This document shows, piece after piece, positions 1,181 to 15,252 of a DNA stretch of 64,000 nt; position 1 is the stretch's first letter; each line of letters starts with the position of its first letter. Source of the stretch: an uncultured Lachnospiraceae bacterium (GTDB lineage Bacteria > Bacillota > Clostridia > Lachnospirales > Lachnospiraceae); contig CANOFW010000005.1 in assembly GCA_947565425.1 (NCBI GenBank), forward strand, positions 62,001 to 126,000, read 5' to 3'. The notes beneath the pieces were generated by a model. That model was not told the DNA's origin and made no database searches. It worked only from the letters and a program-made list of their open reading frames with translations. A program made the position numbers and the translations under genes.

Positions 1181-2656
1181 ATGAATAACATGCCCAAGGA
1201 GAAAATCGGACTCGTTGCGGTGAGCAGAGACTGCTTTCCTATGACGCTTTCGGAGAACAGGAGGAAGGCCGTGGTAAAGGCATTCCAGGAGAAGTATGGA
1301 GACATCTACGAATGTCCCGTTTGCGTGGAAAATGAGATCCATATGCGAAAGGCTCTTGCGGACATCCGTCAGGCAGGATGTAATGCGTTGGTAGTATACC
1401 TGGGGAATTTTGGTCCGGAGACGCCGGAGACTTTGTTGGTGAAAGAATTTGATGGTCCGGCAATGGTTATCGCTGCGGCGGAGGAGACAGGAGACAATTT
1501 GATTCAAGGTAGGGGAGATGCATATTGCGGTGTACTCAATGCCAGCTATAACCTCAAACTGCGCAATCTGAAAGCGTATATCCCGGAATATCCGGTGGGG
1601 ACGGCAGAAGAATGTGCGGACATGATTTCTGAGTTTGCACCGATTGCGCGGGCAATTATTGGGCTGAATAGTCTGAAAATTATTTCTTTTGGTCCCCGGC
1701 CCCAGAATTTCCTGGCCTGCAATGCCCCCATTAAGCAGCTCTATAATCTGGGCGTGGAGATTGAGGAGAATTCAGAGCTTGATCTCTTTGAGGCTTTTAA
1801 CAATCATGCAGGAGACGGCAGGATTCCCGATGTTGTGGCTGAGATGGAGAAGGAACTTGGTGCAGGCAATAAGAAGCCGGAGATTCTTACAAAATTGGCA
1901 CAGTATGAGCTCACCCTCATGGATTGGGTGGAGGAACACAGAGAAAGCCGAGACTATGTGGCGATTGCCGGTAAGTGCTGGCCGGCGTTCCAGACGCAGT
2001 TTGGGTTTGTACCCTGTTATGTGAACAGCCGCCTGACACAGAAGGGGATTCCAGTATCATGTGAGGTAGACATTTACGGCGCACTCAGTGAATTTATCGG
2101 GACGGTGATCAGTCAGGATGCAGTGACGCTTTTAGATATCAATAATTCTGTACCTGCCGATATGTATGAAAATGAAATTAAAGGAAAACATAATTATAGC
2201 TTAAAAGATACGTTTATGGGCTTTCATTGCGGAAATACAGCATCCAGTAAATTATCTTTCTGTGAGATGAAGTACCAGCTCATCATGGCAAGGAGCCTGC
2301 CCATTGAAGTAACAAACGGAACCTTAGAAGGAGATATAGCGCCTGGTGATATTACGTTCTACCGTTTGCAGAGTACTTCCGACGCCAAGATTCGCGCTTA
2401 TATCGCCCAGGGTGAAGTGCTTCCGGTTGCCACTCGTTCTTTCGGCGCCATTGGTGTGTTTGCCATTCCTCAGATGGGCAGATTTTATCGTCATGTGTTG
2501 ATTGAGAAGAATTATCCCCATCATGGAGCCGTAGCTTTTGGACATTTTGGAAAAACATTGTATGAGGTATTTAAATATGTAGGTGTTCCCGTGGAGGAAA
2601 TTGATTTTAACCAGCCTAAGGGCATGAGGTATCCAACAGAAAATCCATTTGCATAA
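1181..2656 (+). CDS. L-fucose/L-arabinose isomerase family protein
   Basis: A 491-residue cytosolic protein of the FucI/AraA-like isomerase family (COG2407 type), which interconverts aldoses and ketoses with a divalent metal. The stretches SCEVDIYGALSEF and VTLLDINNS carry the acidic metal-binding residues expected, followed by GFHCGNTA, a likely third ligand region. The start at 1181 is chosen because GGAAGGAG lies about 8 bases before it; an ATG at 1163 would overlap that site. It lies 80 bases after the xylulokinase gene and 11 bases before a YbjQ-type gene, so these are probably co-transcribed. The sugar cannot be fixed from sequence: L-arabinose, D-arabinose, L-fucose or a relative are all open. 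The xylulokinase neighbour favours a ketopentose product. Confidence 0.8.
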   Translation: MNNMPKEKIGLVAVSRDCFPMTLSENRRKAVVKAFQEKYGDIYECPVCVENEIHMRKALADIRQAGCNALVVYLGNFGPETPETLLVKEFDGPAMVIAAAEETGDNLIQGRGDAYCGVLNASYNLKLRNLKAYIPEYPVGTAEECADMISEFAPIARAIIGLNSLKIISFGPRPQNFLACNAPIKQLYNLGVEIEENSELDLFEAFNNHAGDGRIPDVVAEMEKELGAGNKKPEILTKLAQYELTLMDWVEEHRESRDYVAIAGKCWPAFQTQFGFVPCYVNSRLTQKGIPVSCEVDIYGALSEFIGTVISQDAVTLLDINNSVPADMYENEIKGKHNYSLKDTFMGFHCGNTASSKLSFCEMKYQLIMARSLPIEVTNGTLEGDIAPGDITFYRLQSTSDAKIRAYIAQGEVLPVATRSFGAIGVFAIPQMGRFYRHVLIEKNYPHHGAVAFGHFGKTLYEVFKYVGVPVEEIDFNQPKGMRYPTENPFA

Positions 2657-2667
2657 AGGAGAACAAT

Positions 2668-2982
2668 ATGATTTTAGTAAATACAGATTATATTTCTGGA
2701 AAAGAACTTGAAATGCTTGGCTTAGTAAAAGGGAGTACAATTCAGTGTAAACATTTTGGAAAGGATATATCCCAAGGGTTTAAGACGCTTGTGGGCGGTG
2801 AATTGAAAGCTTATACGGAAATGATGAATGAGGCAAGAGATTTGGCAACCAAGCGTATGGTAGAGGAGGCGCAAAAGCTTGGTGCGGATGCCATCGTCAA
2901 TATTCGCTATGCTTCCTCTGCGATTATGCAGGGTGCGGCTGAGGTAATCACCTATGGGACAGCCGTTAAGTTTACAAATTAG
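2668..2982 (+). CDS. YbjQ/UPF0145 family protein
   Basis: A 104-residue protein of the YbjQ (UPF0145, PF01906) family. These small proteins form pentameric beta-barrel-like rings; a heavy-metal role has been suggested but their function is not established. The family pattern is visible: an N-terminal LVNTDYISGKE strand, the central alpha-helix with EARDLATKRMVEEAQKLGADAIVNIRY, and a final strand ending VITYGTAVKF. The start has AAAGGAG 8 bases upstream. The gene follows the isomerase by 11 bases and is probably the last of that operon, because an 18-bp perfect hairpin lies 46 bases after its stop. No metal-binding cysteine or histidine cluster is visible. Confidence 0.85.
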   Translation: MILVNTDYISGKELEMLGLVKGSTIQCKHFGKDISQGFKTLVGGELKAYTEMMNEARDLATKRMVEEAQKLGADAIVNIRYASSAIMQGAAEVITYGTAVKFTN

Positions 2983-3028
2983 AGACAAGAAAATATAGTT
3001 GTGATGAGTTATACGATTTCTCCAATTA

Positions 3029-3070
3029 AGGCGTGGAAAGAAAATGAAAGAGCATTTTCTTTCCACGCCT
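3029..3070. terminator. Bidirectional hairpin between convergent genes
   Basis: Two perfectly complementary 18-base arms (3029-3046 and 3053-3070) enclose a 6-base loop. The hairpin sits between the stop of the plus-strand YbjQ gene and the stop of the minus-strand CPBP gene. The T-tract is weak on either side, so termination efficiency is uncertain, but position and symmetry fit a shared terminator. Confidence 0.7.
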
Positions 3071-3085
3071 ATTTGTAATTCTTAT

Positions 3086-3997
3086 TTAGCATTGACCGTC
3101 AGCGACGATCTCTTCCATAGGCGGCCGCCGTTTTATCCCTTGCAAATAAAGGAATATTCCAGCGGTGGCTGCGCAGACTGCCGCTGCAAAGATTACAATG
3201 TGCAGAGCAATGGAATTGCCGCTGTAATTCAAGAATGATGGTGCAAATGTTCCCCACAAGTTAAACATCATATGGAACAGGATGGATAGATAGAGACTGC
3301 CACCTTTGTAGCATACATAGCCACAGAAAAGTCCTACCACAAACGCATACGTGCCTTGAATGACATTTGCATGGAAGAGTCCGAACAGAAATGCCTGCAA
3401 AATATTTGCTGCTACAAACGGCATAGCCTTGACTGCGTATTTCATGGTAACGCCGCGGAAAATCAATTCTTCGCTGACGGGAGCAATCAAGACGGAATAA
3501 ATAGCAAGCACCAGGGTAACATCTCCAAAGCCAACGCTTTTCATTAATTCTTCATATGTCTGGTACCAACCGGGGTTGATTACGGCAAGAAGCATTACCA
3601 CATAGGTGGATATGTATTGCATACCGAGCATCATTATGGCAAGCCCGCCGACCATCCATGGATTGATGATGGATGATATTTTACGGCGCGGTTGCTTTTT
3701 GGAGCAGAAACGTTTCCAATACCAGAAACCGAGCGCTATAGCGGCAATCACTGCATAGACGGCGGATATACCGGCAAGAAATTGGCTGTCCATCAGGGAA
3801 CTCATGACGGGGTTCAGAATCGAGTCGGTGATATTGGCCGGGTCTGCGCCGTCAACCAGGATTTCCCGGTTTTTAAATATTTCCAGGAAAATTTTCAAGA
3901 ATACGGCGGCAAAGGTAACAATCATTTGGATACCAAATGCGAGCAACACCGGGAGCAGACAAAATAAAATGCTGCCAATCTTTTTTATTGTTTTCAT
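3086..3997 (-). CDS. CPBP family intramembrane metalloprotease/glutamic protease
   Basis: A 303-residue polytopic membrane protein of the CPBP (Abi, PF02517) family, with about seven or eight hydrophobic segments. The family motifs are present: EELIFRG at residues 176-182, a histidine at 209 in GLFHAN, and a histidine at 242 in LFHMMFN, which together form the active site. Members act in the membrane, and some process prenylated or peptide substrates or give self-immunity to bacteriocins. There is no bacteriocin operon beside it, so its role here is unknown. It is transcribed divergently from the large gene that starts near 4.1 kb, and its own promoter (TTGCAA, 17 bases, TAGAAT) is recognisable at 4061-4033. 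AAAGGA precedes the start. Confidence 0.85.
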   Translation of the reverse strand: MKTIKKIGSILFCLLPVLLAFGIQMIVTFAAVFLKIFLEIFKNREILVDGADPANITDSILNPVMSSLMDSQFLAGISAVYAVIAAIALGFWYWKRFCSKKQPRRKISSIINPWMVGGLAIMMLGMQYISTYVVMLLAVINPGWYQTYEELMKSVGFGDVTLVLAIYSVLIAPVSEELIFRGVTMKYAVKAMPFVAANILQAFLFGLFHANVIQGTYAFVVGLFCGYVCYKGGSLYLSILFHMMFNLWGTFAPSFLNYSGNSIALHIVIFAAAVCAATAGIFLYLQGIKRRPPMEEIVADGQC

Positions 3998-7556: not shown

Positions 7557-7710
7557 GATAATTTACGGTAATTTGCTGCGTATTTATCTTGACTTTTTTT
7601 TACTTCTATGTAAAAATTTACAAAAGAATTGACAATGTAATAATAATGGTATTTTTGTCACTTAAATCAACATAGTTATTACAATGTTAAAACAGAAAGG
7701 AAGGGTAAGA

Positions 7711-10700
7711 ATGAAAAAATGGATGGCAGTGCTGCTTACCGGCTGCTTAATTTTTCAGACCTGGGCTGGGGGATCAATGTTGGCTCATGCTGAAAATTAT
7801 GTGCAGGAAGGCGAAAGCAGCGAGGTAGACGTGAGAGCAACGCAGGCGCAAAGCGCTCTGGAGGTAGAAGTCCGTTCCTCTCTTTTAGTCCCTTATAAAG
7901 GGAAAGTAACCGTACATATCAGTGATGGTAAAGGGACAGAAGCATCGAAAGAGCTGGATTTTAGCAATTCAGATTCATTGACAGCAAGATTTGATGTTGC
8001 TCAGGGAGACTATACAGTTTCTGTGCAGGCGGAGCAATTTGCCACTTATACACAGCAATTGCATGCAGAGGCGGGGTGGCTGACGAAGATTTTAGTTTGC
8101 TCCGGTAAAGTTGAGACTGGAAGCGACGCGGTTCCCGGATGGATTTGTCCGGGTGATGTGAACCGGGATGGTGCTGTAAATGAGGAAGATACAAAAGCCA
8201 TACTCAAAGAAATCCGAGAGAATCCGCAGGGCACAGACATGGATATCAATCAGGACGGCAAGACGGATATTGCAGATTTACAGTGTGTGGTACAAAGCCT
8301 GAACGAAGATAGGAAATCCCAGGTACAAAAGCTGGGTCTGGTTCAGGGAATGCAAGCGGAGGAAGGCACCGCCATAGAGGGAAATGTAGAGGCATTTTTG
8401 AATAATGCCGGCGCTATCCGTTTGAAACCATTAAGTGCAGGAGAGGCAATTTCAACACAAAATCCCGTAAGCATGAAATTTGCATTGACACAGGATGATG
8501 TTATGGACGCCGCACTTATGCCGAAAATAGAGGGGATTACGCTTCATGCGCCTACTGAAATGGATGAAGACGGTACCATTTTTAGTGAGATTACGGATGG
8601 AGAGGCAGTTGTTGTAACGGTCGATGAAAAGGGAGAGGAACAAGAAATTTCCTTCCCGCTTGCGCAGCAGCAAAGAGCCCTGGCATCTCAAGTGGAGCGA
8701 ATGACGTTTGCCCAGCCTGCTTTGGCTTCTTCTAGCAGCGTAAGCGTTGAGGCGGACGGTTCTTTGGTTCTTAATTTTGGTACGCAGATAGCGGTAAAGA
8801 GAGTGACTATCCGCATTACCGGAACGAAAAAGACAGAACCGCTTGTTAATATTGCCAAAGTGGAATTTGTCAATAATATGGAAGAGAGGATTCCGGCGCC
8901 GCAGCTTGATATTCCTACGTTGAATGAGCCGCAGTCAGAGAATCAAGGATTAATGGTATCTTGGAATGCCCAGAGGAATATAACCGGATATGAGGTCTAT
9001 GTGTCTGGTCCGGTAGGGAAACAGGCGACCGTCCAGTCACAGATTGTCCGCGTATCGAGTACGCAGCACAGAATCAGTTCGATTAACGACCAGAATATGA
9101 GAAACTTTGAAAAATATACAATCAAGGTCCGTTCTGTAAACGGCGATTGGCATAGTCCCTGGTCTGAGGAGCGTATCGGAGAACCCAAACCGCAGAGTCT
9201 GCCGGCGGCACCGGATAATGTGTCCGCAGTTGGCGGCTATCGGACAATCACGGTTTCTTGGAAGGATATGTCTGATTCCAACGGCTATATGGTATACTAC
9301 AAGAAATCAGAGGAGGCAGACAGCGCTTACCGTCCGGTAGTGGAAGGGTTTGAACCGCTGGTAAGCGGAGAAGGGAAGATTAACGATACGAAATATGTGA
9401 TTGGCGGTTTGGAAGATGATACACAATATTCCTTGTATGTGAGAGGGTGGAATGAGCTTGGCTGGGGAAAAGCTTCTCTGGTTTCGGTAGCATCCACGAA
9501 GAGTATAGCGCCGCCGCAGCTTCCGAAATATAAATTGCTGAATACTTCCAATGGCGTAGGCGCAGTGAGCGCCCATATTGTGAATGCCACTTATGGAGGT
9601 TCTGGTGGCGCGCATATGGTCGGAAGTCCCTTAGATACGAAAGCCGGCAGCGCTTTGGGATTGGTAGATGATGATTACGGTTCTTATTGGATGAAAGAAG
9701 ACTGGGACGACGGCGTATCTTATCCCGCCAATGACAAGGGAATGACGATTACCTTGGATAACGATTATGAAATGAATTATTTTACCTTTGCAGCGGCGGA
9801 CCAGAAGTCAGGAGTCCAGACCGTCCGTATTCGTTATTGGAATAAAGAAAACGGCGCCGCGGCACAGGTGGCTGGCGTGCGTTTGTTTGAAAAGAGAGAT
9901 GAAAATAATCAGCCGTACTATATAGTAAAAATGGATCAGAAGATCACAGCAAATAAGATTCATCTCAATATAGGAAGGAGTTATAGTGGCAACAGGCAGG
10001 CAATGATGGTAGGGGAGATTCATTTCCACCAGTACGATTCGCTGGAAGAAGATATTATGAATTTGTATGAGGATGAGATGCATACAACGCTGAGAGCTGA
10101 TGTAACCGAAGATACGATTGCTGCTTTGGAAAACCGCTTGAATACCGTAGATGCAGCGAGCGGTGAAAAGCATCCATTGTATAGAGAGCTGCAATTGGAG
10201 TTGAATACGGCGCGAGAAATTTTAAATGCAAATTTAAAGCCTTCCTATGTGGTAGATAACCGCATTACTGCGGCAAAAGATGGACACCTGGGATTCGGCG
10301 GGTTAAATGCATGGCAGCCGCTGGGAAAGGTTGCTTACCAGGGAGAAAAACTGCTGGTATTCGTTGGGCATAATACGAGAAGAACGGGCGACAACACGAA
10401 CTTGCAGCTTGTATTTACGCAGCATCATGCGGAGGCAAGTTCTCTTGCCAGAGCTGTCAACCTGAAAATTGGTCGCAATGAAATCACGGTACCTCAAATT
10501 ACGTCAAATGATTTTGAGCGAGGCGGGCAGCTTTACGTTGCTTATACAGGTAATAACAGTGCGGATCAATATGCAGTTCGTATCGGCGGCGGAAGTGACA
10601 TTCCAGTTCTGAGTGTGTATGGTAAAACGGGAGACGAGCGAACTCAGGCAATTCGTACCTATGTCCAGGAACTGGAATCTTATGTGACCTCTATCCAGGC

Positions 10701-12912
10701 GGAACATGAGAATAAACATACGAATGTAAACAATGTGAATTATGAATATAACCAGACCAATTGTATTTTGAACGCAACAGATATCATGATGCCAAAGATG
10801 ATGTATTCTCTGCCGGCTACACAAGTTTGGGCGGGAATCAAAAAAGCGGATGATAAAGTGGCGAAATTAGATCAGGCTTTGCAGGCAATGGAACAAACCA
10901 TGACGCTGTTTTACCAGCACAAAGGACTGAGCGATGCGGCAGGTACAGTCAGGGGCAATAATGCGCTGCCCGCACAGCATTTGAATATCCGTTATATGAG
11001 AATGTTTGCCGGTGCATTCATGTACGCGTCCGGGAATCATATCGGAATTGAATGGAATTCTGCTACATTGGCAAGTGCGCCTTCTAATTGGTCTGGATTT
11101 GGCTGGGGAATCGCCCATGAAATTGGCCATAACATCAATCAGGGAAGTTATGCTGTTGCGGAAGTTACGAATAACTATTTTGCGCAGCTTTTGACAGGAA
11201 AGAGACGTTATACTTATGAGAATGTGTACCGCAAAGTAACGTCTGGCACAGTCGGGCGCGCGTCCAATGTATTTACGCAGCTTGCGCTTTATTGGCAGCT
11301 TCATCTGGCGTTTGACGATAATGCAGACGACAAATATATGTATGACGATTATGAGGAGCAGTTTGCAAATCTGTTCTTTGCACGGGTAGATACATATTCC
11401 AGAAATCCGAAACAGGCTCCGCAGTCAGGCTTAACGTTAAATGGTGGTTCCGAACAGAATCTCATGCGTCTTGCCTGTGCAGCCGCAAATAGAAATATCC
11501 TTCCATTCTTTGAACGGTGGGGTATGGTGCCTGACAGTGCGACCGTCGCATATGCAGAGAAATATGGGAAAGCCGATACAAAAGCGCTGTATTATGTAAA
11601 TGAAGATGCGAGAAGCTATCGTCTGGCGCATCCGGGCGAAGTGGGAACTATCAAAGACCAGGATGCTGTCACAGCGCGCGTATCTGCAAAAGCAAACCAA
11701 GTAGAAATTACAATGCAGACGAAGTCGGATGCAAATTTAATTTTGGGTTATGAGATCAGCCGCAGTATGATTTATAATGGTGAGAAGAAGACAGAAGTAG
11801 TTGGATTTGCGCCAATAAAGACGGCGGATGCAACCGTTTATGTAGACACAATTGCTTCTATTGATAACCGTGTGATGGAATATGAGGTGCGGGCAGTAGA
11901 TAAATTCCTCAACTACTCAAATAAAACGCAGGCAGGCTCAGCAAAGATTAAAACGGACGGCGTATTAGAGAAAAGCGCTTGGACCGTTACTTCCAATATG
12001 ACGTCAGAAGACGACATAGAAATTGAAACCGATGAGGAAGATCCGGACAATGGATATCATGGAGACGGCGCTGTTCCAGTAAAGAAGGTAAACAGTATTG
12101 AAAGAATTATAGATAACGACAGGACAGCGGATGGTACGTTTACCGGTAATAGTACGGGAACGGCAGTGATCGAAATAGATATGCATAAGACCGAGGAAGT
12201 TACCTCCTTGAAATATCAGGGCGATGCTATAGGAGACGTGACTGTTGAAGTCAGTGCAGATGGTGAGACCTGGACTACCGTGAAGGAGCATTATGCAGGA
12301 ATTACTGGAGCGGAAGAAGCGACAATCTGGTTTGACTCCGTAAAAGAAGATACCAGGGATGAATGGATCGGGACGTATGATGCCAGATATGTACGCATAA
12401 CGCTGGCGAAGTCCGGTAGTATTTCGATTCAGGAAGTTGAAATCTGCGGTCCTTCTGGAGATAATCTGGAATTTATGACGACAGGAGATGCGCAGCCGGC
12501 AATTGGCATTTTGTCCAAAGATTACCAGTATGGCGATCAGAAGGAAGATGTGATTCCGCAGGGCTCTTTAATCTTCAGCGGGAATTATAAAGGAAATCCT
12601 GCCTACAATGTGGTTATATTGTACGATACCGAAGGCAATGTGATTGGCGCCAAAGATGGCAATGTGGAGGCAAAGCAAGTAATTTTTGCCGACGTGCCGG
12701 AGCATGGGAATCTAGGTGAGACTTCAAATGGAACATGGGTTTATTATGTGGAACCAGGGAAATGGGATATGGATTCCCTCCAGAAACTTGGCGGTGTGCG
12801 CGGTGAATTATATCGAGTAGACGACGCTTTGACCTTAGAAGGAGAACGTATCGTCAGCGATACGCTGGTAATTCAAATTCCGAAGACCCTTCCTTCCATC
12901 ACCTTACAGTAG
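7711..12912 (+). CDS. Secreted M60-like (enhancin) metallopeptidase with dockerin-like segment
   Basis: A 1733-residue secreted protein. The start at 7711 follows GGAAGGG and gives a typical signal peptide of about 29 residues (MKKWMAVLLTGC to AHAEN). After it come a dockerin-like pair of calcium loops at about residues 145 to 200 (DVNRDGAVNEED and DINQDGKTDIAD), two FN3 domains (about 395 to 600) and an F5/8-type C module (about 610 to 775). The peptidase domain carries HEIGHNINQ with HExxH at 1136-1140 and a glutamate at 1151, as in M60 zinc peptidases. A second discoidin-like module (about 1460 to 1590) and an unassigned C-terminal domain follow. M60 enzymes of gut bacteria cleave mucin-type O-glycoproteins; that substrate is inferred here. 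The cohesin-like gene starts 21 bases downstream, so the two are probably one operon. Confidence 0.85.
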   Translation: MKKWMAVLLTGCLIFQTWAGGSMLAHAENYVQEGESSEVDVRATQAQSALEVEVRSSLLVPYKGKVTVHISDGKGTEASKELDFSNSDSLTARFDVAQGDYTVSVQAEQFATYTQQLHAEAGWLTKILVCSGKVETGSDAVPGWICPGDVNRDGAVNEEDTKAILKEIRENPQGTDMDINQDGKTDIADLQCVVQSLNEDRKSQVQKLGLVQGMQAEEGTAIEGNVEAFLNNAGAIRLKPLSAGEAISTQNPVSMKFALTQDDVMDAALMPKIEGITLHAPTEMDEDGTIFSEITDGEAVVVTVDEKGEEQEISFPLAQQQRALASQVERMTFAQPALASSSSVSVEADGSLVLNFGTQIAVKRVTIRITGTKKTEPLVNIAKVEFVNNMEERIPAPQLDIPTLNEPQSENQGLMVSWNAQRNITGYEVYVSGPVGKQATVQSQIVRVSSTQHRISSINDQNMRNFEKYTIKVRSVNGDWHSPWSEERIGEPKPQSLPAAPDNVSAVGGYRTITVSWKDMSDSNGYMVYYKKSEEADSAYRPVVEGFEPLVSGEGKINDTKYVIGGLEDDTQYSLYVRGWNELGWGKASLVSVASTKSIAPPQLPKYKLLNTSNGVGAVSAHIVNATYGGSGGAHMVGSPLDTKAGSALGLVDDDYGSYWMKEDWDDGVSYPANDKGMTITLDNDYEMNYFTFAAADQKSGVQTVRIRYWNKENGAAAQVAGVRLFEKRDENNQPYYIVKMDQKITANKIHLNIGRSYSGNRQAMMVGEIHFHQYDSLEEDIMNLYEDEMHTTLRADVTEDTIAALENRLNTVDAASGEKHPLYRELQLELNTAREILNANLKPSYVVDNRITAAKDGHLGFGGLNAWQPLGKVAYQGEKLLVFVGHNTRRTGDNTNLQLVFTQHHAEASSLARAVNLKIGRNEITVPQITSNDFERGGQLYVAYTGNNSADQYAVRIGGGSDIPVLSVYGKTGDERTQAIRTYVQELESYVTSIQAEHENKHTNVNNVNYEYNQTNCILNATDIMMPKMMYSLPATQVWAGIKKADDKVAKLDQALQAMEQTMTLFYQHKGLSDAAGTVRGNNALPAQHLNIRYMRMFAGAFMYASGNHIGIEWNSATLASAPSNWSGFGWGIAHEIGHNINQGSYAVAEVTNNYFAQLLTGKRRYTYENVYRKVTSGTVGRASNVFTQLALYWQLHLAFDDNADDKYMYDDYEEQFANLFFARVDTYSRNPKQAPQSGLTLNGGSEQNLMRLACAAANRNILPFFERWGMVPDSATVAYAEKYGKADTKALYYVNEDARSYRLAHPGEVGTIKDQDAVTARVSAKANQVEITMQTKSDANLILGYEISRSMIYNGEKKTEVVGFAPIKTADATVYVDTIASIDNRVMEYEVRAVDKFLNYSNKTQAGSAKIKTDGVLEKSAWTVTSNMTSEDDIEIETDEEDPDNGYHGDGAVPVKKVNSIERIIDNDRTADGTFTGNSTGTAVIEIDMHKTEEVTSLKYQGDAIGDVTVEVSADGETWTTVKEHYAGITGAEEATIWFDSVKEDTRDEWIGTYDARYVRITLAKSGSISIQEVEICGPSGDNLEFMTTGDAQPAIGILSKDYQYGDQKEDVIPQGSLIFSGNYKGNPAYNVVILYDTEGNVIGAKDGNVEAKQVIFADVPEHGNLGETSNGTWVYYVEPGKWDMDSLQKLGGVRGELYRVDDALTLEGERIVSDTLVIQIPKTLPSITLQ

Positions 12913-12933
12913 TTCAGAATTATGGAGGTAAAG

Positions 12934-14331
12934 ATGAAAAATATCATAAAATATTTATGTCTGTTATTCTTTTGTATTTTTGCGATACCGGCTGCTGTTG
13001 AGGCAGCGGGGACGAATAGCCTGACTGTTGAAAATAATAAAGTGGCTGTATCGGTGAGCATTCCAGAGGGAAAGACAGAGACGATCACTTCACTGAGAAT
13101 GCAGCTTCTTGTCACCATCACCAGCGGGAGCATGGGAGAGCCGAAGTTCCAGTTTGAAAATGGTCTTCCAAGTATAATTCAGGACGCTGCGATAAGCAGT
13201 AAGGGAGAGAATATCTATGCGGTAGACTTAGTGCTCTCGGGAAAAAAAGATCAGGATATCTTTGGCGGCAGCGAATATGTAAGATTGGGAACTTTGTCGT
13301 TCCAACCGACCAGCAAGACGTATGAAATAAAAGTTGAAGTAGTCGGAGATGGAGACGATGGGCAGGAACCCTCCGTAACATATGTAGATGCCAACGGACT
13401 GTCAGCAATGACAGCTCCGCTGGCAGACGCAGAACCTGTGACAGTGACGGAAGCCAATCAGGAACAGCCCGTACAAAAGCCTTTTAATCCCAAAGTGAAA
13501 TTGACAGCATCTGTGAAGAAAGGCTCAAACCGTGTGAATTTTAAATGGGAGAAAGTGGATGAAGCAGACGGCTATGTGCTTTACAGATTCGATACGAAGG
13601 CGAAAAAATGTACGTTGCTCAAGACCATTAAAGGCGCAGATATCACGACGTATGCGAAGACATTTCCATATGGTTCTACCTATGCATTTAAAATTCGGGC
13701 ATTTAAAGAAAATGCAGATGGAAGTGTAAAATATGGCTATTACAGTTCGGCGGCAAAAGTAAAAGTATCATTAGCGCAGGTGACAGAGTTCTCTCCGCAG
13801 TACCAGAGTACATCTAAGGTTCGTATGTCCTGGAAGAAAGTTGACGGAGCGAAGGGCTATCAAATTTATCGCAGCACAAAAAAGAATGGTAAGTATAAGC
13901 TTGTTAAGACCATTAAAAAGGGAAAGGTAACCTCTTGCTCCAATATTAAGCACCCAGATGGAGAAGTTTATTATTATAAGATCCGGGCATACGCAGTTGG
14001 CTCGACAGGCGCTCAGGTATATGGCTCATACAGCGCCAAGCAATCGGCAGCGCCTCAGCAACCGAAATTGCGTTTGAAGAAAAAATCTACCAAGCAAGTA
14101 ACGTTATCCTGGAAAAAGGTGGTGCGGGCAGATGGATATGCTATTTATAGAAGCTCGTCCAAATCCGGCAAATATGTATGTGTAAAAACGATAAAAGATG
14201 CGAATGTAACAAGCTTTACGGCAAAGCTGCCCAAAGGCAAAAAGAGCTGCTATTACAAAGTATGCGCATTTGAAAAGCAGAATGGTAAGAACCGGATGGG
14301 AGCGTACAGTGCGGTTAAAAAAGCAAGATAA
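12934..14331 (+). CDS. Secreted cohesin-like protein with three FN3 repeats
   Basis: A 465-residue exported protein with a signal peptide (MKNIIKYLCLLFFCIFAIPAAVEA). The start at 12934 is set by TGGAGGT 5 to 11 bases upstream. Residues about 27 to 165 form a beta-rich module resembling a cohesin: an opening NKVAVSVSIPEG strand, a central AVDLVLSG, and an RLGTLSFQP strand as in the LATLTF strand of cohesins. Three tandem fibronectin type III-like repeats follow (about 185 to 280, 285 to 375, 380 to 465), each with a YxxYR/IYRS strand and KTIK. No sortase motif or membrane anchor is present. Lying 21 bases behind a protease that carries a dockerin-like segment, it may be that enzyme's binding partner. 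The cohesin assignment rests on pattern only and should be held loosely. Confidence 0.6.
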   Translation: MKNIIKYLCLLFFCIFAIPAAVEAAGTNSLTVENNKVAVSVSIPEGKTETITSLRMQLLVTITSGSMGEPKFQFENGLPSIIQDAAISSKGENIYAVDLVLSGKKDQDIFGGSEYVRLGTLSFQPTSKTYEIKVEVVGDGDDGQEPSVTYVDANGLSAMTAPLADAEPVTVTEANQEQPVQKPFNPKVKLTASVKKGSNRVNFKWEKVDEADGYVLYRFDTKAKKCTLLKTIKGADITTYAKTFPYGSTYAFKIRAFKENADGSVKYGYYSSAAKVKVSLAQVTEFSPQYQSTSKVRMSWKKVDGAKGYQIYRSTKKNGKYKLVKTIKKGKVTSCSNIKHPDGEVYYYKIRAYAVGSTGAQVYGSYSAKQSAAPQQPKLRLKKKSTKQVTLSWKKVVRADGYAIYRSSSKSGKYVCVKTIKDANVTSFTAKLPKGKKSCYYKVCAFEKQNGKNRMGAYSAVKKAR

Positions 14332-14376: not shown

Positions 14377-14451
14377 ACAAAATAACGCATATTTATACAG
14401 CGATACAACTACCATATTCCAAACAGGAATGGAAAACAGGAGGAAGAAATA

Positions 14452-15252
14452 ATGAAAAATGCAAAGAAGTTAGCAGCAGTATTGTTGGCAGGCGCTATGC
14501 TGACAAGCATTATGGGATGCGGGGTTCCGGCGAACACCGTACATGCCCCGGAAGATATGGCGGGCAAGAAGATTGGCGTACAGCTTGGGACGACAGGCGA
14601 TACGCTGGTAACTGATGAATTTGAAAAGGATGGCAATACGACGGTAGAGCGTTATAAAAAGGGCGCGGACGCTGTGCAGTCCTTAAAGCAGGGCAAGATT
14701 GACTGCGTAGTCATTGACTCTGAGCCGGCAAAGGCGTTTGTAGAACAGAATAGTGATTTGAAGACTCTTGACACAGAGTATACAGATGAAGAGTATGCGA
14801 TCGCTATTGCCAAAGATAATTCAGAGTTAAAAGAGAAGATTAATGGCGCCCTTGCTGAATTAAAGTCTGAAGGCGTGCTGGATCAGATTATGGCAAATTA
14901 TACAGGCGATGATACGATGGGAACCTGCCCTTATGAATCTCCGGCAGATGTGGACACATCAAACGGTAAGCTGGTAATGGCAACGAACGCAGCGTTTAAG
15001 CCTTATGAATACTATGAGAATAATGAGATAGTAGGTATCGACCCGGAAATTGCTCAGGCAGTAGCAGATAAGCTGGGCATGGAGCTTGAGATTATTGATA
15101 TGGATTTTGATGCGATTATCAATGCGGTGCAGTCTGGTAAGGCGGATATCGGCGTGGCTGGAATGACGGTCAATGAAGAACGTTTACAGAGCATTGACTT
15201 TAGCGATACATATGCCAAAGCGAAACAGGTAATCATTGTTCGTGCAAAATAG
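14452..15252 (+). CDS. Amino-acid ABC transporter binding lipoprotein, circularly permuted
   Basis: A 266-residue lipoprotein with a signal peptide ending in the lipobox IMGC. It belongs to the SBP_bac_3 family, which captures polar amino acids outside the membrane for an ABC importer. The order of its halves is inverted. Residues about 37 to 157 (from GKKIGVQLGTTGD to LKSEGVLDQIMANY) correspond to what is normally the second half of these proteins. Residues about 172 to 266 (KLVMATNAAFKPYEYY through FDAIINAVQSGKADIGVAGMT to DTYAKAKQVIIV) correspond to the usual first half. The usual hinge from QVIIV to GKKIGVQLG is thus replaced by the new termini, and a short Asp/Thr-rich linker joins the old ends. 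Both halves are complete, so a normal fold is plausible. The permease and ATPase genes follow at once. Confidence 0.85.
   Translation: MKNAKKLAAVLLAGAMLTSIMGCGVPANTVHAPEDMAGKKIGVQLGTTGDTLVTDEFEKDGNTTVERYKKGADAVQSLKQGKIDCVVIDSEPAKAFVEQNSDLKTLDTEYTDEEYAIAIAKDNSELKEKINGALAELKSEGVLDQIMANYTGDDTMGTCPYESPADVDTSNGKLVMATNAAFKPYEYYENNEIVGIDPEIAQAVADKLGMELEIIDMDFDAIINAVQSGKADIGVAGMTVNEERLQSIDFSDTYAKAKQVIIVRAK

Follow-up and report, generated by a model that had tools for sequence, protein, structure and literature searches.

The binding protein and its operon

The window analysed here is a stretch of 64,000 nucleotides from an uncultured Lachnospiraceae bacterium (assembly GCA_947565425.1, contig CANOFW010000005.1, positions 62,001 to 126,000). 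On its forward strand, at 14452..15252, lies the gene for P0001, a 266-residue probable solute-binding lipoprotein of family 3 (SBP_bac_3) in which the usual order of N-terminal half followed by C-terminal half is reversed. We call this circularly permuted order CP1. The gene, assigned from its open reading frame (ORF), from Pfam, NCBIfam and profile matches and from an AlphaFold2 model (mb569ba20650d), is preceded by a ribosome-binding site, AGGAGG, at 14438..14443. It is followed on the same strand by the ORFs of a permease (P0002, 15267..15956; BPD_transp_1 and HEQRo_perm_3TM) and a GlnQ-like ATPase (P0003, 15946..16683), the start of the latter overlapping the former by 11 bases. Permease and ATPase match ordinary polar-amino-acid families in Pfam and NCBIfam and are normal, as an earlier note on this DNA, made from the letters alone, had supposed. 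P0001 would be the substrate-binding lipoprotein of a polar-amino-acid ATP-binding cassette (ABC) importer, encoded by a naturally permuted SBP_bac_3 gene.

The signal peptide (14452..14520) ends at Cys23 of the motif SIMGC, probably the lipobox of P0001, at which the protein would be lipidated. Cys23 precedes the first half and is conserved in at least 90% of the sequences in a 25-row alignment (A1). Methionine at the -2 position of a lipobox is unusual. The first half (residues 28-153, 14533..14910) corresponds to the C-terminal half of a canonical protein and holds the bulk of the small lobe together with hinge strand 2 and the large lobe's C-terminal helices; its small-lobe profile match begins 7 residues past Cys23, at residue 30. 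A new linker (residues 154-168, DTMGTCPYESPADVD, 14911..14955) leads from the old C-terminus to the old N-terminus, and a related motif is present in most CP1 proteins of the main group. The second half (residues 169-266, 14956..15249) corresponds to the canonical N-terminal half and contributes the bulk of the large lobe together with hinge strand 1 and the first small-lobe strand (QVIIV). The gene is under strong constraint: the ratio of non-synonymous to synonymous divergence (dN/dS) is about 0.03-0.07 in four of five comparisons, with dS near or above saturation and the fifth comparison not computable.

Complementary halves in reversed order

PF00497 (SBP_bac_3) matches P0001 with 121.5 bits (curated cut-off 26.4) in two stretches, the better of which places residues 174-265 on the start of the profile (1-92). 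The end of TIGR01096 (121-249 of 250) is matched by residues 28-150. The order of the halves is not part of the Pfam score test and was read from these matches and from a canonical profile of 216 columns built from 18 relatives. Along native P0001 this profile is matched first by residues 30-150 (columns 98-215) and then by residues 173-264 (columns 2-93), with a score of 296 bits. When its halves were re-ordered in silico they formed a single unbroken domain over columns 2-215 (314 bits), and 20 shuffles of the halves scored at most 2.4 bits. Both halves are complete: the sole columns without a match are 94-97, where the cut lies, and the outermost two, 1 and 216. The best sequence match in the PDB, AncQR (4zv1), gives the same picture, with residues 171-264 of P0001 on chain residues 9-103 and residues 29-152 on 108-232.

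Judged by its sequence, P0001 is a permuted variant of SBP_bac_3 and not a canonical member; the old termini are joined by the new linker, and the new termini are opened in the loop after the first small-lobe strand. The swapped order, the completeness of the halves, the lipobox and the reading as a circular permutation, and not as unrelated fragments fused together, had all been put forward in the earlier note, and all are borne out. Fourteen NCBIfam amino-acid-binding models match P0001 at 1e-3 and none reaches its cut-off (best 134.1 versus 256.35 bits). Family models that depend on order split the permuted protein and leave it below cut-off, so mis-annotation can occur.

Predicted fold, ligand site and position of the cut

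The AlphaFold2 model of P0001 has a predicted local distance difference test score of 89.1. Domain 2 of TmArgBP (6gpm) superposes on model residues 25-112 with a root mean square deviation of 2.1 Å and 38% identity, and domain 1 (6y16) on residues 125-260 with 2.4 Å and 39%. Each lobe matches the corresponding lobe of this solved arginine-binding protein, as in a two-lobed class II fold. By prediction, P0001 takes up the usual Venus flytrap fold of two lobes and retains both hinge strands.

In GlnBP, according to PMC7400645, residues 5-84 and 186-224 form the large domain, 90-180 the small domain, and 85-89 and 181-185 the hinge. Residues 172-265 of P0001 align with GlnBP 3-96 at equal length; hinge 1 therefore falls at P0001 254-258, and the C-terminus (residue 266) corresponds to GlnBP 97, a small-lobe position. 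In the model, two long strands (111-120 and 255-264) lie at the places expected for the hinge strands. The cut is in the small lobe, 8 residues beyond hinge strand 1, and so beside the hinge and not in it. The earlier note had put the permutation at the hinge itself, a location that the GlnBP alignment, the published hinge residues and the model strands rule out.

The conserved ligand contacts of SBP_bac_3, a Gly, Thr and Arg of the large lobe and an Asp of the small lobe, are present in P0001 as Gly237, Thr239, Arg244 and Asp89. The first three correspond to the GlnBP contacts Gly68, Thr70 and Arg75; Asp89 would be equivalent to GlnBP Asp157, judging from the AncQR alignment. Gly237, Arg244 and Asp89 are invariant in A1, at least 90% of whose rows also have Thr239. 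An amino acid would be bound between the lobes through the usual contacts to its alpha-carboxylate and alpha-amino groups, whereupon P0001 would close and pass the ligand on to the permease of the adjoining gene.

A second permutation and the distribution of both

With the canonical domain divided into segments A (columns 1-94), B (98-162) and D (164-216), homologues occur in three orders: A-B-D (canonical, NC), B-D-A (CP1, the order of P0001) and D-A-B (CP2). The 178 unique complete single-domain ORFs comprise 60 NC, 86 CP1 and 32 CP2 proteins; they were gathered with a CP1 query, counting each distinct sequence once and excluding ORFs that run off the end of a locus, and are not population frequencies. 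By alignment the CP2 cut precedes the last small-lobe strand, and the CP2 anchor would therefore also be on the small lobe. The linker between the halves measures 16-24 residues across the 86 CP1 proteins. Three loci, L063-L065, have a different linker and are cut about 10 residues later than the main CP1 group. Five canonical relatives compared with P0001 are 52-73% identical to it per half, and canonical and permuted forms mostly adjoin related permeases.

A full-length permuted orthologue with at least 78% identity is found in 13 of 29 genomes of the same genus, that of the window included (12 of the 13 were fetched as loci). The earlier note proposed a search for the same order in Lachnospiraceae; it is present in at least 42 of 200 sampled family genomes, in every case backed by a fetched locus, that of G195 being cut by a contig end. 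This figure is a lower bound at a search threshold of 1e-20. CP2 was confirmed in at least 16 of the 200. Across the phylum, at a threshold of 1e-35 and with up to 6 candidates scored per genome, at least 4 of 398 genomes, again counting that of the window, carry full-length permuted matches, likewise a lower bound. One CP1 locus (L055) lies on the finished chromosome of Blautia parvula. The earlier note implied a single oddity, but the order of P0001 is common among Lachnospiraceae and related bacteria, and it is not the only permutation.

Permuted proteins fused to a permease also occur in two Succinivibrionaceae of the Gammaproteobacteria (L067:2977-4491 and L068:2962-4488), possibly acquired from Clostridia. 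At L181, which covers the same region as L026, two adjacent CP1 genes (1436-2224 and 2396-3187) are followed by a single permease; the upstream gene of the pair is divergent and reads LTLALHIGF where MATNAxF is usual.

Number of origins

Trees were built from segments restored to canonical order. On a binding-protein tree of 131 representatives (65 CP1, 48 NC and 18 CP2, after removal of three short rows), CP1 needs 7 changes and CP2 needs 2; the starred branches of this tree, which was made by a quick method and has several long branches, force at least 2 changes each for CP1 and CP2. Divergent rows (L002, L171, L121, L072 and others) were omitted from the smaller trees used for approximately unbiased (AU) tests. 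For the binding protein alone (59 rows, all 23 CP1 against the rest), a single CP1 clade was not rejected (p 0.36). When the permease and ATPase were included (46 rows, with all 19 CP1), one CP1 clade was rejected (p 0.0005).

A clade uniting the window's group with L063/L065 was rejected by the operon (28 rows, p 8e-56) and by permease and ATPase alone (p 3e-52), and was not rejected by the binding protein alone on the same 28 rows (p 0.075), whose tree places L063/L065 beside the canonical L104. This grouping was picked after the trees had been seen, and its p values overstate the case. A single CP2 clade was not rejected (p 0.059), and in the 59-row tree CP2 is one side of a branch with support 0. 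If the operon genes share a history, as the operon tests assume, CP1 probably has two or more origins, or a single origin plus a reversal, gains and reversals being indistinguishable in these tests.

Two loci show conflict between binding-protein and transporter trees, in both cases with weak support. The canonical L108 (L108:2932-3684) groups with CP1 binding proteins in the one tree and with canonical transporters in the other; the transporter of the CP1 locus L059 (L059:2968-3804) lies near canonical transporters. Gene exchange or reversal are possible causes.

Origin of the permuted order

Canonical tandems exist among the homologues, with two domains in L106 and three domains plus a permease in L125. 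A solved tandem, the SBD1-SBD2 pair of GlnPQ from Lactococcus lactis (6h30), matches CP1 in one stretch through its inner part (97-330 of 460), by position the C-terminal half of SBD1 followed by the N-terminal half of SBD2, although each of its domains is canonical. It is the only entry whose best stretch spans both halves among the best 60 of the 431 PDB sequences hit by the CP1 profile, and serves as a model for the ancestral tandem. Because such tandems exist and the inner stretch of 6h30 resembles CP1, the permuted order would most likely have arisen when the binding domain was duplicated in tandem and the outer halves were then lost. Taken as a whole, the reading of P0001 as a permuted SBP_bac_3 lipoprotein of a polar-amino-acid importer, with its anchor probably now on the small lobe and a likely origin in tandem duplication, has our high confidence.

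The L125 protein (L125:910-3813, reverse strand, 967 residues) consists of three very similar tandem canonical binding domains fused to a permease. A further protein of 750 residues, P0004 (L124:1161-3410, reverse strand), about 28% identical to P0001, has the order C-N-C-N-permease; the pairing of its halves is ambiguous between two permuted domains and an outer pair around a canonical inner domain. Its own-genome homologue (L002/L123) runs past a contig end.

Proposed consequences of the moved anchor and alternative explanations

The clearest change brought about by the permutation seems to be the move of the lipid anchor from the large to the small lobe, and the main mechanical consequence would be that the anchor holds the small lobe on a short leash. 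With domain starts extrapolated to segment ends, the median distance from the lipobox Cys to the domain is 8 residues for CP1 proteins (a lipobox is recognised in 78 of 86), 6 for CP2 (32 of 32) and 27 for NC (59 of 60). Rank tests that ignore kinship give p 2e-17 and 4e-13; with independent pairs (3 on starred branches, 7 on all branches) significance was not reached. Among single-domain proteins, fusion to a permease is found in 23 of 86 CP1 and in none of 60 NC or 32 CP2 proteins. If the start of the permease is set at its own first residue, it begins 1-7 residues after the last matched strand in these 23 proteins.

We give roughly even odds to the permuted order being a neutral relic, a product of duplication and truncation that folds and works like its canonical counterpart and in which neither anchoring nor kinetics was selected. 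The coexistence of both forms at the identities given above, mostly beside related permeases, agrees with this, as does the leash association that misses significance in independent pairs. Since a single CP1 clade is not rejected on the binding protein alone, one chance event and inheritance could account for much of the distribution. A relic accounts less readily for two different cut sites that both leave the anchor on the small lobe, for the rejection of one CP1 clade by the operon trees, or for the limitation of permease fusion to CP1 among single-domain forms, although the fusions may represent few events.

Selection on anchor position is a tentative alternative. Here the small-lobe lipid anchor, or a fused permease, would act as a short leash near the permease, in a geometry like that of ionotropic glutamate receptors. 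The short leashes of CP1 and CP2 and the closeness of the fused permeases to the domain argue for it. The C-terminus of P0001, where the CP1 order is opened, falls at position 112 of 115 of PF10613 (Lig_chan-Glu_bd; 28.9 bits, cut-off 30), coincident with the end of S1, and 23 of the 25 A1 rows match this family at 1e-3. In the receptors, as described in PMC2924276, the order is S1-channel-S2, with the pore inserted between S1 and S2; in P0001 the halves are re-ordered instead, and no channel domain is among the Pfam matches of its 266 residues. A small-lobe tether resembling that of the glutamate receptors is put forward as a hypothesis by analogy. The loss of significance after phylogenetic pairing counts against selection, and canonical proteins are fused too: the triple-domain L125 and GlnPQ, in which a 19-residue linker joins SBD2 to the permease (PMC8025302). 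We doubt the broader proposal that permutation recurred in one importer family of gut Clostridia, at two sites and with L063-L065 about 10 residues off, each time moving the anchor to the small lobe because of short-leash or permease-fused tethering in glutamate-receptor geometry.

A domain-swapped dimer, in which the N-terminal half of one chain completes the C-terminal half of another, is improbable; the length of the inter-half linker makes swapping conceivable, but the monomer model is confident (the prediction was run for a monomer) and fused and single forms have a common order. An assembly error or chance fusion of fragments of two genes has a negligible probability and, like a pseudogene, is ruled out: the genome assembly behind the window is a draft in 65 contigs, but the order recurs in 86 distinct complete proteins and on the finished Blautia parvula chromosome, and the gene is one open frame with low dN/dS.

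Relation to known systems

OpuAC of Bacillus subtilis (2b4l; PF04069, glycine-betaine-binding) is, like P0001, a two-lobed class II protein with swapped halves. Compared with OpuAC of L. lactis (3l6g), its residues 156-256 superpose on 3-102 and 1-148 on 107-255 (numbering of the typed 258 residues). It is cut after NSIEDL, in the same loop as CP1, and the P0001 model has its longest collinear structural matches with this protein; L063-L065 end shortly past SIEDL-like motifs. P0001 works like B. subtilis OpuAC in its permuted order and is not a member of that family, from which it also differs in ligand. PF04069 has no match in P0001 at 1e-3 and matches 1 of 25 A1 rows, and the profile alignment between OpuAC and P0001 is weak (E 0.018 over 58 columns). 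Among OpuAC-family genes of relatives (26 genomes), the binding proteins at the seven loci read (L193-L199) look canonical by eye. Because 2b4l is swapped relative to 3l6g and cut in the CP1 loop, both the permutation and this breakpoint exist in a solved protein of another family. In the text of the L. lactis OpuAC paper that was accessible to search (PMC2861598), no mention of permutation, swap or topology was found.

GlnH/GlnBP, AncQR and TmArgBP share family, lobes, key contacts and transporter type with P0001, but have the opposite half order, with the N-terminus, and any anchor, on the large lobe. Another natural permutation of an ABC-importer binding lipoprotein is Tp0684 (TpMglB-2) of Treponema pallidum, for which 'Type Ic / Cluster Bc' has been proposed and whose authors suggest a link between permutation and membrane tethering (PMC4990184). 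It differs from P0001 in binding sugar, in its type I fold, in its permuted N-lobe and in a fourth cross-over. Membership of P0001 in Type Ic / Cluster Bc is ruled out by its SBP_bac_3 sequence and class II lobe matches.

No natural permuted SBP_bac_3 protein was among the literature matches listed, judged by title and start of abstract; subscription journals lay largely outside that scope, and an earlier report could exist. By its title, the work of Clifton et al. 2017, cited in PMC7683729, reportedly combined circular permutation and ancestral reconstruction for Förster resonance energy transfer sensors, and is said to be relevant to this family; those sensors are engineered permutants, whereas the permutation of P0001 is natural. 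Where a natural permutation has close canonical relatives, it offers a useful natural experiment. The permuted and unpermuted forms here differ by 27-48% of residues per half (five relatives) and stand mostly beside related permeases, so that the effect of chain order and tethered lobe on capture and delivery is directly testable. That this loop is also opened in OpuAC, and coincides with the point of pore insertion in glutamate receptors, points to one privileged breakpoint in the fold.

Neighbouring genes

Directly upstream of the operon, at 12922..14331 on the forward strand, lies a gene for a protein of 469 residues with a signal-like N-terminus and a GH85_C match, whose repeats resemble fn3 by eye. 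It is preceded at 7684..12912, on the same strand, by the gene for an M60-like peptidase of 1742 residues, which also carries fn3, dockerin and F5/8 type C domains and at a guess might act on host glycoproteins.
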